Source: Clostridia bacterium (GTDB taxonomy: Bacteria > Bacillota > Clostridia > Oscillospirales > Acutalibacteraceae). Taken from it: 46,582 nt of DNA. Position 1 is the stretch's first letter, and the number at the start of each line of letters is the position of its first letter. Both the position numbers and the translations under genes were made by a program. Shown here piece by piece: positions 13,591-26,713 of the stretch. The stretch covers positions 1 to 46,582 of the forward strand of contig JAFTEL010000031.1 of assembly GCA_017453685.1 (NCBI GenBank), written 5' to 3'. The notes beneath the pieces were generated by a model. The model worked only from the letters and a program-made list of their open reading frames with translations, had not been told where the DNA came from and ran no database searches.

Positions 13591-13608
13591 TAATCGGGTG
13601 TGTGTGAT

Positions 13609-14736
13609 ATGAAGTATGATTATCTGATCGTCGGCGCAGGCTTATATGGCGCCGTGTTCGCGCAGCAGGCAATCGCGCGCGGCAAAAGGGTTCTGGTCAT
13701 TGATAAGCGCAACCACATTGCCGGCAACATTTACACCGAAAAGACGGAGGGCGTCAACGTTCACAAATACGGCGCGCACATTTTTCACACCAATAACAAA
13801 CAGGTCTGGCAATATATTACGCAGTTTGCCGACTTCAACCGGTATACGAATTCTCCCGTGGCCAACTACAAAGGGGAACTCTATTCACTTCCGTTTAATA
13901 TGTACACATTCAACAAAATGTGGGGCGTGATCACACCCAGTGAAGCAAAGGCAAAGATTGAAGAACAGCGCAAGGCCGCGAACATAACAGAACCTCGGAA
14001 TCTGGAAGAACAGGCCATTTCGCTGGTGGGAAAAGACATCTACGAAAAGCTGGTAAAAGACTACACCGAAAAGCAGTGGGGCAGGCCGTGCACGGAGCTG
14101 CCGAGCTTTATCATCAAGCGGCTTCCCGTTCGCTTTACTTTTGACAACAACTATTTCAACGCGCTGTATCAAGGCATCCCGATCGGCGGCTATACAAAGA
14201 TGGTCGAAAAAATGCTGGCGGGGGCTGACGTTCGTCTCGGCGTTGATTATCTGGAAGCAAAGCAAGAGCTTGACGCTGTCGCGGAAAAAATCGTATACAC
14301 AGGCTCTGTTGACGCCTATTTCGGCTATTGTTTAGGAGCTTTGGAGTATCGCTCGGTCAGCTTTGAAACCGAACTGATCGATACGGAGAATTATCAGGGC
14401 AACGCCGTCGTGAACTATACGGACAGAGAAACGCCGTTCACCCGCATCATCGAGCACAAATGGTTTGAATTCGGCAAAGACGAGGCCGGAAACGACCTGC
14501 CGAAAACGGTCATCAGCCGGGAATACAGCGCCGAATGGAAGCAGGGCGACGAGCCGTATTACCCCGTCAACAACGAAAAGAACAGCAAGCTGTACAGCGA
14601 ATATAAAAAGCTGACCGATTCCGAAAGCAAGGTCGTTTTCGGCGGCAGATTAGGCGAATACAAGTATTATGATATGGACGCCGTGATTGCCGCCGCGCTG
14701 GAAAAAGCGAAGGCGGAATTCGGAGAGATCAAATAG
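13609..14736 (+). CDS. glf: UDP-galactopyranose mutase
   Basis: About 375 residues. The N-terminal FAD-binding motif VGAGLYGAVFA (about 8-18) and KRNHIAGNIYTE, then KYGAHIFHTNNKQVW, NRYTNSPVANYKG, VKDYTEKQWGRP and a late GGRLGEYKYYDMDAVI are all characteristic of Glf. The enzyme converts UDP-galactopyranose to UDP-galactofuranose, the precursor of galactofuranose in surface glycans. ATG 13609 is preferred to GTG 13600, although neither has a strong ribosome binding site. It belongs with the two upstream transferases; a galactofuranosyltransferase is not evident in the window. Confidence 0.95.
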   Translation: MKYDYLIVGAGLYGAVFAQQAIARGKRVLVIDKRNHIAGNIYTEKTEGVNVHKYGAHIFHTNNKQVWQYITQFADFNRYTNSPVANYKGELYSLPFNMYTFNKMWGVITPSEAKAKIEEQRKAANITEPRNLEEQAISLVGKDIYEKLVKDYTEKQWGRPCTELPSFIIKRLPVRFTFDNNYFNALYQGIPIGGYTKMVEKMLAGADVRLGVDYLEAKQELDAVAEKIVYTGSVDAYFGYCLGALEYRSVSFETELIDTENYQGNAVVNYTDRETPFTRIIEHKWFEFGKDEAGNDLPKTVISREYSAEWKQGDEPYYPVNNEKNSKLYSEYKKLTDSESKVVFGGRLGEYKYYDMDAVIAAALEKAKAEFGEIK

Positions 14737-16678: not shown

Positions 16679-16948
16679 TCAACGCAGCAGAAGGGTCAGC
16701 GCCGCCGTCACGGCTGACCCGATCGCCGCGGCGGATATCAGCCAGAGCGCCTTCACCAGACGGGAACGGTATACCTTGGTCGCCGGCGGTCTGCCGCCCG
16801 CCTCGGCAATGGCGTTGGCGCGTTCCCGCAGTTTGCCTTCGCTGACGCCGGCACATTCCGGCTTGACGAAGAACATCACTTTTTCAAAGTATTCCCCGTC
16901 CGCTTCGTTGATCTCAATGACCTGTCTGTTGATTCCTTTTATCATCAT
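16679..16948 (-). CDS. 89-residue conserved-type protein with C-terminal membrane anchor
   Basis: It begins MMIKGINRQVIEINEADGEYF and ends with a hydrophobic helix (about 66-88, LWLISAAAIGSAVTAALTLLL) after a basic KVYRSRLVK stretch, so the N-terminus should face the cytoplasm. The small beta-rich N-terminal part with FFVKPECAG recalls a conserved clostridial hypothetical family (recollection, not checked). GGAAAGGAA before the double ATG sets the start at 16948 or 16945; the frame runs on upstream to 17215 without a ribosome binding site. First gene of the operon. Confidence 0.7.
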   Translation of the reverse strand: MMIKGINRQVIEINEADGEYFEKVMFFVKPECAGVSEGKLRERANAIAEAGGRPPATKVYRSRLVKALWLISAAAIGSAVTAALTLLLR

Positions 16949-17355
16949 TCCGTTCCTTTCCCGCGCGTTTACTGCTTCAAACGCAACCATATTGTTGGCG
17001 GTTGACCGATCAATTATTCTCGACAAAACGACGGAAAGTTTTTGACATTTACCATCTGTATAGTGAAAAACATTTGTCCATGTGAAAAACCCTGTGGAAA
17101 ATGTGAGTAACTCGCGATTTTTCGCCTGTTTTACGCCGTTTTGCCTGTGAAACGGCTTTTGGCGCCCGCTTGCGTGATAACAAACTGTAATAAAATTTTT
17201 GTCGAACGGTGTCAAAACACGGCTTCTTCCCCGCTTTTTACCGCTGATTTCCCCCGCGATCCGGCGAAAAGTATTCCGTCAAGATGTTTGCCTGCGGCTT
17301 AATCAGCGTTTACTTAATATTAAAGTTAAGAAAATATGAAAATCACGCTTTTCCG
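16949..17355. other. Intergenic region without a recognised gene
   Basis: About 400 bases between divergent transcription units. A possible GCCGTTT/AAACGGC hairpin with TTTTGG lies near 17133-17160. ORFs here are short and lack ribosome binding sites. No clear promoter for the minus-strand small operon was found. Confidence 0.5.
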
Positions 17356-17384
17356 TTGACACGGCGGCGGCAGAAGAATATAAT
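17356..17384 (+). promoter_or_regulatory. Consensus sigma-A promoter of the aminomutase-like gene
   Basis: TTGACA (17356-17361), 17 bases, TATAAT (17379-17384), a perfect vegetative promoter. The leader before ATG 17463 is about 70 bases and contains a small hairpin (GATCGGTC-GCAA-GACCGGAT near 17421-17440). Confidence 0.85.
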
Positions 17385-17462
17385 AAATAAAACTATGCGT
17401 TTTCATGCCGAAAGCGCAAGATCGGTCGCAAGACCGGATTAAAAGACACGGAGGTATGTGTT

Positions 17463-18959
17463 ATGAGCAACGGTTACGCCATTTCAAAATGACAGGACGC
17501 CAAAACGATTTACAAACAGCTTGGTGAGCTGACATCAAAGCCCATCTACAGCATTTCGGACGAAGAACTGAAAAGCGTGCTCGCATATTTTGACACGAAG
17601 TGCGTCAAATCCAAAGAGATCACCACCGAGGCGAAAAATTACATCCCCGGCGGCGTGCAGCACAACCTGGCGTTCAACTATCCGTTCCCCATCTGTGTGG
17701 TGAAGGCTGACGGCGCCTATCTTTACGACCGCGACGGCAACCAATACATCGACTTTTTGCAGGCCGGCGGCCCGACGATCCTGGGCAGCAACTATCCCGC
17801 CGTGCGTGACAAGGCCATCGAGCTGATCAAAGAATGCGGTCCCGTCACCGGCTTGTTCCATGAGGCGGAGCTTTTGCTTGCCAAAGAAATCAACAAGCAT
17901 ATGCCGAACGTCGAAATGTTCCGTATGCTCGGTTCCGGCACGGAATCGGTCATGGCAGCCATCCGCGTGGCCCGCAACGCCACCAAAGCCAAGCGCATCA
18001 TCAAGGTCGGCGGCGCGTATCACGGCTGGTCCGATCAGATGGTCTACGGTCTGAAAATCCCCGGCAGCCGTCAGTTCCTCGAATCGCACGGCATCCCGCA
18101 CGGCTGCTACGGCACGACGGATGAAGTGCGCCCGAACGATCTGAACATGCTCGAAGCAATGCTCCGGCGCAACAAGCTCCGCGGCGGCACCGCGGCGGTG
18201 ATCGTGGAGCCGGTCGGCCCCGAAAGCGGCACCCGTCCGATCGATTTTGAATACAACAAAGGCGTGCGTGAGCTTTGCAATAAATACGGCGCGCTGTTCA
18301 TCATGGACGAAGTCGTCACCGGTTTCCGCATCGGTCTCGGCGGCGCGCAGGGCTTCTTCGGCGTTGTGCCCGATCTGACGATCTTCGGCAAGGTCGTTGC
18401 CGGCGGTTATCCGTCCGCGGGCGGCGTCGGCGGCAAGCGCGAATTCGTCAGCGGCATGGCGGCAGGCGTCGGCACGATGATGAAACGCGCCTATGTCGGC
18501 GGTACGCTGGCGGCGAACCCGCTTTCCGCGTTTGCGGGCTATTGCGCGATCCAGGAGATCGCCAAGACCGACGCTTGCTACAAAGCGGGTCAGGCGGGCG
18601 ATCGTCTGACGGACGGTCTGAAGAAGCTGATCGAGCAGTACAAGCTGCCGTTCGTGGCCTACAACCAGGGCTCCATCGTCCACCTCGAATGCTCCGGCGC
18701 CATGAGCTTCGATTTCAGCTCCATGAACGTGCTCGGCTCGGTCATCCCCATGCTCAAGAAAAAGCCCGAAATGCTGCGCAGAAAGGTCGCCATGGAAGAA
18801 ATGGGCGCCGCCTACATGGCGCACGGCATCATCACGCTGGCGGGCAGCCGTTTGTATACGTCGCTGGCGGATACGGACGAAGTCATCGACGAAGCGCTCA
18901 ACCACTTTGAAGACGTGTTCAAGACCGTTCAGGTCTGCAACAGAAACCTCGATAAATAA
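17463..18959 (+). CDS. Glutamate-1-semialdehyde aminomutase-like class III aminotransferase with in-frame TGA at codon 10
   Basis: A PLP fold-type I enzyme: FHEAELLLAKEI, GSGTESVMAAIRVAR, the cofactor Asp in MDEVVTGFR (about residue 280) and the Schiff-base Lys in FGKVVAGGYPSAG (about 308). It resembles HemL-type aminomutases and related amino-group enzymes; no haem genes lie nearby, so the substrate is open. The oddity is at the start: GGAGG, 8 bases, ATG 17463, nine codons (MSNGYAISK), then TGA (17490-17492), after which the same frame continues with protein-like sequence (QDAKTIYKQLGEL) into the conserved enzyme. The next in-frame start, GTG 17577, has no clear ribosome binding site. Readings: nonsense mutation or sequence error of a Trp TGG, recoding, or a short leader peptide. 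Other genes here use TGA as stop. Confidence 0.8.
17517..17531 (+). promoter_or_regulatory. Possible bacterial SECIS-like hairpin downstream of the in-frame TGA
   Basis: A 5-bp stem CAGCT/AGCTG with loop TGGTG, its GGT beginning at the second loop base, 29 bases after the TGA at 17490-17492. Spacing and loop G fit the general bacterial SECIS description, but a 5-bp stem is short and could be chance. Recorded as a candidate only. Confidence 0.25.
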
Positions 18960-18994
18960 AACAGTTCGCCAGTATAACACGACAAGCGGAAACG

Positions 18995-19048
18995 GAGCAT
19001 ATTTGCGCCTTCAAAGAAGGTTCAGATATGCTCCTTATTTCTTCTCTC
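18995..19048 (+). terminator. Terminator after the aminomutase-like gene
   Basis: GGAGCATAT...ATATGCTCC (9 bp) encloses a second CCTTC/GAAGG stem, followed by TTATTTCTTCT. The T run is interrupted. Confidence 0.65.
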
Positions 19049-19127
19049 CATCAAACGGAGATCCAAGCAAATGTGCATCCTGCGGATTGTTTTTTCGCTT
19101 TTGCAAGGCTTCTTCATATATTGATTC

Positions 19128-19156
19128 TTTACAACTCTTAATAAAAGGTGTATAAT
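19128..19156 (+). promoter_or_regulatory. Promoter of the TagD-LicD unit
   Basis: TTTACA (19128-19133), 17 bases, TATAAT (19151-19156). The leader to ATG 19291 is about 130 bases and AT-rich; the rest of the 330-base gap holds only this and the upstream terminator. Confidence 0.7.
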
Positions 19157-19290
19157 ATTTATTATTCCCGAATAAAAAGAAGCTATCCCTAAGGCTTAAG
19201 GAAAACCGGCTGCTTTTTGGGTTGGAAAAATGAAACTATTATTTCTTCACGTCGGATAAGATCGCGTTGTGAAGATACAGGAGGCTTGTT

Positions 19291-19743
19291 ATGAAGCAGG
19301 ATATCGCCGAAAAAAAGTACCGCATAGGGTTCACTGCGGGAGTCTTTGATCTGCTGCATATAGGACATCTGAATCTGCTGGAACGCTGCAAAAGTATGTG
19401 TTCTTATTTGATTGTCGGTGTTTGCGACGACGATTATGTCAGAAATGTTAAGCACAAAGAACCGGTATATCCACTTATGGATCGAGTCAGACTGCTGAAC
19501 GCTCTGAAATGTGTTGATGAAGTTGTTGTGATCAACACGGCGGAAACCGAAGACAAAATGCTTTGCATCAAAGAGTTGAAATTCGATGTGCTGTTTTCAG
19601 GTGATGATTGGAAGGGAACGCCTCGTTATCTGAAAACAGAAGAGCAATTCGCGGAATTCGGAGCAAAAATCGAATATTTTCCTTATACGCAGGGCATTTC
19701 AACGACCCAGATCAAAGAACGGACAAAGAGCGAAACGAAATAA
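19291..19743 (+). CDS. TagD-like cytidylyltransferase (glycerol-3-phosphate type)
   Basis: 150 residues. GVFDLLHIGHLNLL carries the HxGH nucleotidyltransferase motif (H23-I24-G25-H26), and the C-terminal ISTTQIKER matches the CTP-binding RxxxISTTxI-type end of the family. These enzymes form CDP-alcohols (CDP-glycerol for teichoic acids, or related CDP-choline or CDP-ethanolamine precursors). AGGAGG precedes the ATG. The licD gene that follows uses such activated groups to decorate surface polymers, which supports this role. GC is lower than in the core genes. Confidence 0.85.
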   Translation: MKQDIAEKKYRIGFTAGVFDLLHIGHLNLLERCKSMCSYLIVGVCDDDYVRNVKHKEPVYPLMDRVRLLNALKCVDEVVVINTAETEDKMLCIKELKFDVLFSGDDWKGTPRYLKTEEQFAEFGAKIEYFPYTQGISTTQIKERTKSETK

Positions 19744-19928
19744 AGCCCCAAGCGGATACCCCCGTTTTTAAATACCGCAGGAGAGAAGCCATGCTTCAGT
19801 GACCGAGAACAACGACCGTTATCTTTTCGTCGTTCAGTTAAAAAAAACGACATTCTTTTGCGAACGACGGCGGACATTTTCGCAAGGCTTTTGGATCAAT
19901 ACAACAGAGAATGAGTGGAGGACAAAAA

Positions 19929-20729
19929 ATGGCTTGCACGCTGGAAGACCTTCAGAAAGCGGAATATGGTATGCTTTGTCAATTTGCCGATTTTTGTGAT
20001 AAGTATCAAATTACTTACGGACTGGCTTGGGGTACGCTTTTGGGTGCCGTTCGGCATAACGGCTTCGTTCCATGGGACGATGATATCGATATTCATATGG
20101 AAGTGCACGAATTCAAAAAGCTGTTGCGTTGTTTGCGCAAGCATCCGATCCATGGATTGCACTTGTCATGGATGGATTCAGAGCCGGACAATCCATTTTT
20201 TATTGCGAAATTACGGAAGAACGGTACCTTTATGCCGGAACCCTTCTCGGGCTTGAAGAATATCGATATTCACAACGGGATATGGATCGATATCTTTTGT
20301 TATACCGGTATACCGAAAAGCAAAAAACTCGCCGCTTTGCAGAAAAAACTGCTTTTCTATTACCGCTCTGTGTCACACATTATCTTTTTTAAATATGACC
20401 CCGACATTGATCACCCGCTTACCAAAACAAAAGCGTATTCTTTGGGCATGAAAATGTCGAATAAAAATATCTTTCGTATACGCAAGCTGTTGTTTTGGCT
20501 ATATACCAATATGGGCAGTCGCCATTCTGAGGAAGTGCTTTATAATTCGATCGACTTTATGCGCTCGGCACCGCGAAAATATGAACTGCCGCTCTGTCGG
20601 CATACGTTTGGCGACCGTGAATTTTCCATACCGCAGAATTATGATGAAGCACTGACAGATATGTACGGCGACTATATGACACCGAAGCAGTTTCCGTCAC
20701 ATGCCGATTATGCAAACGTTCAGCTTTGA
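19929..20729 (+). CDS. LicD family phosphotransferase
   Basis: About 266 residues. The diagnostic LicD block LAWGTLLGAVRHNGFVPWDDDIDI (about 32-55) has the catalytic DDD-x-D acidic cluster at residues 50-54. LicD proteins transfer phosphocholine or similar phospho-groups from CDP donors to sugars of teichoic acids and other glycans. ATG 19929 follows TGGAGG; ATG 19911 would put that site inside the gene. It lies 185 bases after the cytidylyltransferase with no clear terminator between, so the two probably form one functional pair. The phospho-group is not known. Confidence 0.88.
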   Translation: MACTLEDLQKAEYGMLCQFADFCDKYQITYGLAWGTLLGAVRHNGFVPWDDDIDIHMEVHEFKKLLRCLRKHPIHGLHLSWMDSEPDNPFFIAKLRKNGTFMPEPFSGLKNIDIHNGIWIDIFCYTGIPKSKKLAALQKKLLFYYRSVSHIIFFKYDPDIDHPLTKTKAYSLGMKMSNKNIFRIRKLLFWLYTNMGSRHSEEVLYNSIDFMRSAPRKYELPLCRHTFGDREFSIPQNYDEALTDMYGDYMTPKQFPSHADYANVQL

Positions 20730-26113: not shown

Positions 26114-26713
26114 ATGAAATCCGGCATTAAGGACATTGCGGAACGCATCTGCGCGCTGCGCGAGATCATGGGCTTTTCCCCCGAGGAAATGGCACAGGCG
26201 ACGAAAACGACCGTCGAGGAATACGAAAGAATGGAGAAGGGCGAAAGCGATTTTTCCTTCATCTTTCTGCTCCTTTGCGCGCAGAAATTGGAGGTCGAAC
26301 TGGTCGCGCTGCTCACCGGTGAAAACCCGCACCTGGCGCGCTGCGCCTACACCAAGGCGGGCACGGGGCTGCCGCATAAACGCGGCGCGGAAAACCTGAA
26401 TTATTTCCACCTTGCCGCCAACCTGCGCCACAAGCTCGCCGAGCCGTTTCTGGTGCAGGCGCCCTATTCCGACGAGGCGCAGGGCATGCCCATCCACCTT
26501 TCCACCCACCCCGGTCAGGAATTTGACTATGTGCTCAAGGGCTCGCTGCTCTTCACGCACGAGGGGCACACCCGCGTGATCCACGAGGGCGATTCGGTCA
26601 TGTACGATTCCGGCATGCCTCACGGCATGATCGCCACGGGCGGCGAAGATTGTCTGTTTTTGGCAGTCATCATCTCCAAGAAAATCGAGGACGAGGAAAC
26701 AGAGGAAGCGTAA
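26114..26713 (+). CDS. XRE-family HTH regulator with C-terminal cupin domain
   Basis: About 199 residues. An N-terminal XRE-type helix-turn-helix (about 5-60, with REIMGFSPEEMAQATKTTVEEYERME) is joined to a double-stranded beta-helix cupin_2 domain (about 105-195, with HPGQEFDYVLKGSLLF and GDSVMYDSGMPHGM, including ligand-type His and Glu residues). Such proteins sense a small ligand, often an acid or metal complex, and control the adjacent operon. ATG 26114 fits GAGGTGG best; ATG 26111 and GTG 26105 are alternatives. It is 3 bases from the first acyl-CoA synthetase gene, so it probably regulates its own operon. Confidence 0.88.
   Translation: MKSGIKDIAERICALREIMGFSPEEMAQATKTTVEEYERMEKGESDFSFIFLLLCAQKLEVELVALLTGENPHLARCAYTKAGTGLPHKRGAENLNYFHLAANLRHKLAEPFLVQAPYSDEAQGMPIHLSTHPGQEFDYVLKGSLLFTHEGHTRVIHEGDSVMYDSGMPHGMIATGGEDCLFLAVIISKKIEDEETEEA

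Follow-up and report, generated by a model that had tools for sequence, protein, structure and literature searches.

A lone in-frame TGA at an invariant tryptophan codon of a clostridial aminotransferase-like gene: very probably a single-base error or recent mutation and not a recoding site

The window, i.e. the whole stretch of DNA analysed here, comprises 46,582 nucleotides and belongs to the gut-type bacterial genome G000, a MAG consensus of 184 contigs that is 80.6% complete. A sigma-70-type promoter of the form TTGACA-17-TATAAT is located at 17356..17384 on the forward strand and agrees with the consensus in 12 of 12 bases. Both hexamers recur ahead of the gene in G009 and G008, and are thus common to two sister species despite the divergence of much of the upstream sequence around them. 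A GGAGG ribosome binding site (17450..17454, forward strand) stands 8 bases upstream of an ATG at 17463, which, read directly from the window sequence, lies within acGGAGGtatgtgttATG. The start ATG and the rest of the first nine codons (17463..17489, forward strand) encode MSNGYAISK, and the same nine residues are found in G009 and G008. The tenth codon is an in-frame TGA (17490..17492, forward strand), and the translated frame reads MSNGYAISK*QDAKTIYKQLGELTSKPIYS..., remaining open after the TGA until a TAA at 18957-18959. A first-pass annotation had described a ribosome binding site and start followed by a frame that meets a TGA and then continues in a protein-like manner; this was borne out, with 488 more codons. 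The first ATG, GTG or TTG in frame past the TGA is a GTG (Val39) at 17577..17579 on the forward strand, 28 codons on as previously claimed. This GTG is the start given in the list of open reading frames, where it opens a frame of 460 codons, and it has no GGAGG-like site directly upstream.

The remaining 488 codons and the TAA (17493..18959, forward strand) encode an aminotransferase class-III, glutamate-1-semialdehyde-aminomutase-like protein. The protein scored 186.8 bits with PF00202 (aminotransferase class-III), above the Pfam gathering score of 30.5, and missed the equivalog cut-off of TIGR00713 (HemL, glutamate-1-semialdehyde 2,1-aminomutase), scoring 273.3 bits where 527.3 are needed. 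Judged by sequence, the aminotransferase-like family is a conserved, predicted clostridial enzyme below the HemL cut-off. The TIGR00713 match begins at residue 49 of the window protein; about 48 N-terminal residues of the family thus lie outside the HemL model, and W10, I16, L20 and L23 among them are invariant in 26 aligned rows. In one group of relatives (L029, L030, L035 and L039) an insertion of about 42-44 residues follows the position of window-protein residue 300. The neighbours at 13600-14736 and 19911-20729 match UDP-galactopyranose mutase (GLF) and the LicD family, which suggests a cell-surface polysaccharide neighbourhood.

The codon aligned with the TGA was compared between the window and its relatives, as the first-pass annotation had proposed to do for position 10 of the homologues (W, C or U). 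The outcome was W throughout: the codon reads TGG in all 90 loci besides the window's own (L001-L080 and L082-L091), a set that includes at least five duplicates, being, to judge by their lengths, the same contigs under two identifiers. These loci are the best 80 from a genome scan together with further copies from a genus search, and a subset of 40 of the 80, inspected first, had likewise given only TGG. Trp10 is also invariant in alignment A1, which has 26 rows, i.e. 25 relatives and the window row, in which the TGA was entered as Trp. Across 200 genomes of the family, sampled evenly from a larger set, 49 strong matches (E of at most 1e-150) were found, spread over 48 of the genomes, and only the window's match had an internal stop. 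The gene is present in all 11 genomes of the genus, one copy being partial and ending with its contig. Additionally, a degenerate pattern spanning the TGA was searched for in viral contigs, of which 0 matched.

The gene is under purifying selection. The dN/dS ratio was 0.097 between the window and G009 (497 codons), 0.089 between the window and G008 (282 codons) and 0.072 between G009 and G008, i.e. about 0.09 for the window gene against its sister genomes. Within the first 283 codons, five private changes at the amino-acid level fall on the window branch, counting the stop, against one in G009 and two in G008. This excess is a weak hint of relaxed constraint, unexpected under a pure error. 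Decay into a pseudogene was considered and rejected, as there is no second stop before the TAA and dN/dS is about 0.09, even if private replacements are more numerous on the window branch than in the two sisters.

Downstream of the TGA, the sequence CAGCT-TGGTG-AGCTG (17517..17531, forward strand) may form a hairpin with GGT in its loop and had been proposed as a SECIS element 29 bases past the TGA. That distance holds for the loop, but the stem begins at 24 bases. Folded in isolation (17 bases) the hairpin has an energy of -6.2 kcal/mol, beating 200 of 200 shuffled sequences; it is not part of the best fold in contexts of 53, 61 and 114 bases, where its bases are paired otherwise. The 53-base fold beats 198 of 200 shuffles (z -2.2), and the 61- and 114-base folds are ordinary (z -0.53 and 0.07, respectively). 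In G008, a sister genome with TGG, the hairpin bases are identical, and in the eleven other sequences compared (G009, G005, G001, G007, G010 and six further loci) the stem is non-complementary. A strict rule, requiring a 5-bp hairpin with GGT in its loop 10-50 nt past a TGA, was satisfied by 17 of the 1631 TGA triplets on both strands of the window, and a looser rule, asking for no more than a G among the first two bases of the loop, by 174 of the 1631. Hits resembling a SECIS are common; in the part of PMC1242214 consulted, a bacterial SECIS search is described in which 1.5% of the UGA codons examined gave hits. No Rfam family matched positions 16800-19300 at E up to 1.

The selA, selB, selC and selD genes named in the first-pass annotation were searched for as SelA, SelB, SelD and tRNA-Sec. 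Each was above its cut-off in none of the 11 genus genomes, all of which were searched, while 2, 2, 2 and 5 of 14 control genomes, respectively, passed the same searches. The best scores in the genus stayed below cut-off, with 180.7 of 242.25 bits for SelB, 41.1 of 125 for SelD and 43.3 of 47 for tRNA-Sec, and the top tRNA-Sec match in G000 is a tRNA-Ser(tga) according to ARAGORN. In G000, which holds the window, 150 of 314 tRNA-Sec candidates were scored; since this genome is also only 80.6% complete, its own absences weigh less than those in the six relatives that are at least 90% complete.

For the genetic code of G000, 204 CDS-like open reading frame matches of relatives were compared with 857,811 bases of the genome. 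Matches without an excess at the third codon position were removed before counting (23 of 119 in one pass, 18 of these 23 holding stops). Of 59,089 codons compared, 513 align to Trp, with TGG accounting for 460 of them, and the terminators of a sample of 161 genes are TGA in 75, TAA in 82 and TAG in 4, all these counts being approximate because the filter leaves some antisense frames. Release factor RF2 is present with 514 bits, over the cut-off and in an open frame. TGA is a stop codon in G000. ARAGORN typed 41 of 42 tRNA hits in this genome, among them one tRNA-Trp, with anticodon CCA, and none of the 41 hits called has a UCA anticodon; the set lacks Asn, Ile, Lys and Phe and is therefore incomplete, so that an unseen suppressor tRNA may exist. 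With five pairs in its anticodon stem (GCGGT/ACCGC), A9 and G24, this tRNA-Trp corresponds to no UGA-reading variant given in the consulted part of PMC13092985. The tRNA-Trp(CCA) with a 4-bp anticodon stem described there resembles the present case in that UGA stands at a Trp position, and differs in the stem and in positions 9 and 24. UGA-reading variants of tRNA-Trp were accordingly rejected as candidates for the sole tRNA-Trp found.

Four readings besides a plain base change have to be weighed against these results. Selenocysteine directed by the hairpin at 17517..17531 would resemble known bacterial selenoprotein genes with a SECIS, in which a short hairpin whose loop contains a G stands downstream of an in-frame TGA, and the stability of the isolated element, with its GGT loop at 29 bases, speaks for it. 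The case differs from such genes in that the homologues have Trp in 90 of 90 loci and neither Cys nor Sec, in that sel genes exceed the cut-off in 0 of 11 genomes where controls pass, and in that the hairpin is not linked to the TGA, its bases standing beside TGG in G008 and pairing otherwise in longer contexts. We therefore hold selenocysteine, one of the options put forward in the first-pass annotation, to be extremely unlikely. The same annotation had stated that Trp in the homologues together with a lack of sel genes would reduce the case to a mutation or an error, and this is the combination found. Reassignment of TGA to Trp has in its favour that the residue replaced is Trp; as RF2 is present, TGA terminates 75 of the 161 sampled genes, 460 of the 513 Trp-aligned codons are TGG and no tRNA-Trp(UCA) was found, its probability is practically nil, and it was rejected for the sampled part of the genome, i.e. 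the 59,089 codons. A nine-residue leader peptide controlling a downstream start such as the GTG at 17577 had also been suggested, and the 460-codon frame from there would retain the whole part that matches the aminomutase (from about residue 49). This option is not supported: none of the 90 relatives has a stop at this codon, residues 1-38 with their invariant W10, I16, L20 and L23 lie within the relatives' reading frame, and no ribosome binding site precedes the GTG. We consider such a leader peptide very improbable.

A TGA with C as the next base is regarded as leaky, and the base after this TGA is a C, so a tolerated real stop is conceivable. The TGA would then be real and fixed in the strain, and a near-cognate tRNA-Trp would partly read through it, resulting in a low level of enzyme; we regard this as unlikely, though less so than the readings above. 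The downstream frame is intact and under purifying selection, as such a reading would have it, but this selection may all be older than the mutation, and the tRNA-Trp lacks the 4-bp anticodon stem as well as both readthrough changes, A9C and G24A. According to the sections of PMC7918605 available to us, in-frame stops in genes with dN/dS below 1 are widespread in bacteria, TGA being a leaky stop at which Trp is incorporated at a low rate, and such real stops mostly persist on the scale of population polymorphism. The stops treated there by Belinky et al. (2021) are like the present one in being internal to a gene with dN/dS below 1; as far as the same sections state, only stops common to two or more genomes were counted, whereas the window's stop is found in a single genome. 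Because no searched relative has the stop, nothing shows that it is maintained. It is unlikely that the TGA is a leaky early stop kept by the lineage, throttling the enzyme while ordinary tRNA-Trp supplies Trp10 at low frequency. If it were real and maintained, it would offer an example, well suited to study, of leaky termination at the invariant Trp of a conserved enzyme.

The explanation that we consider very probable is an ordinary gene in the standard code, in which a single-base change from TGG to TGA has hit an invariant Trp codon, with no recoding signal involved. The first-pass annotation had called a TGG-to-TGA mutation or sequence error the simplest option, and this fits the tests made; its observation of the interrupted gene was confirmed, and its interpretation was supported in part. 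The TGA could have arisen as a wrong base or minor variant in the 184-contig, 80.6%-complete MAG consensus, or as a very recent nonsense mutation in the sampled strain. By our estimate an error or minor variant is slightly more likely than a real mutation. That internal stops in bacterial genomes can stem from assembly errors is documented in the part of PMC11017572 consulted, and the spurious stops described in that part by Cooley and Wright (2024) resemble the present one, each standing alone in a conserved gene that is otherwise intact and belongs to a fragmented draft genome. Should the mutation be real, we infer that most ribosomes would halt after nine residues and that a small amount of full-length enzyme would arise by leakage, with Trp from ordinary tRNA-Trp. 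As far as the codon comparison can tell, the change looks recent, the relatives examined having Trp, and does not look like a new way of reading the code. The finding carries little biological weight, and it provides a clean example of a recoding-like lone TGA that is explained through its relatives.

Other stops in G000 were also listed. A first pass, prior to the filtering of matches, had given 48 stop rows, and one of the removed matches (window position 26622, minus strand) had TGA against Trp. The final list contains 17 positions including 17490-17492, and we judge from position and flanks that most of the other 16 are antisense open reading frames, over-extended N-termini or C-terminal ends. 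TGA stands at Trp in two of the listed positions, the second being L177:9834, where another TGA follows two codons on and the stretch lies upstream of the likely ATG start of another gene. At L172:158 (G000:C6, minus strand), 158 bases from the contig end, a TAG stands against Arg in a conserved frame, and this may be a second genuine nonsense mutation or assembly error in G000. Two further stops are found in matches of high identity, L167:9018 with TGA against Phe and L175:9168 with TGA against Cys.
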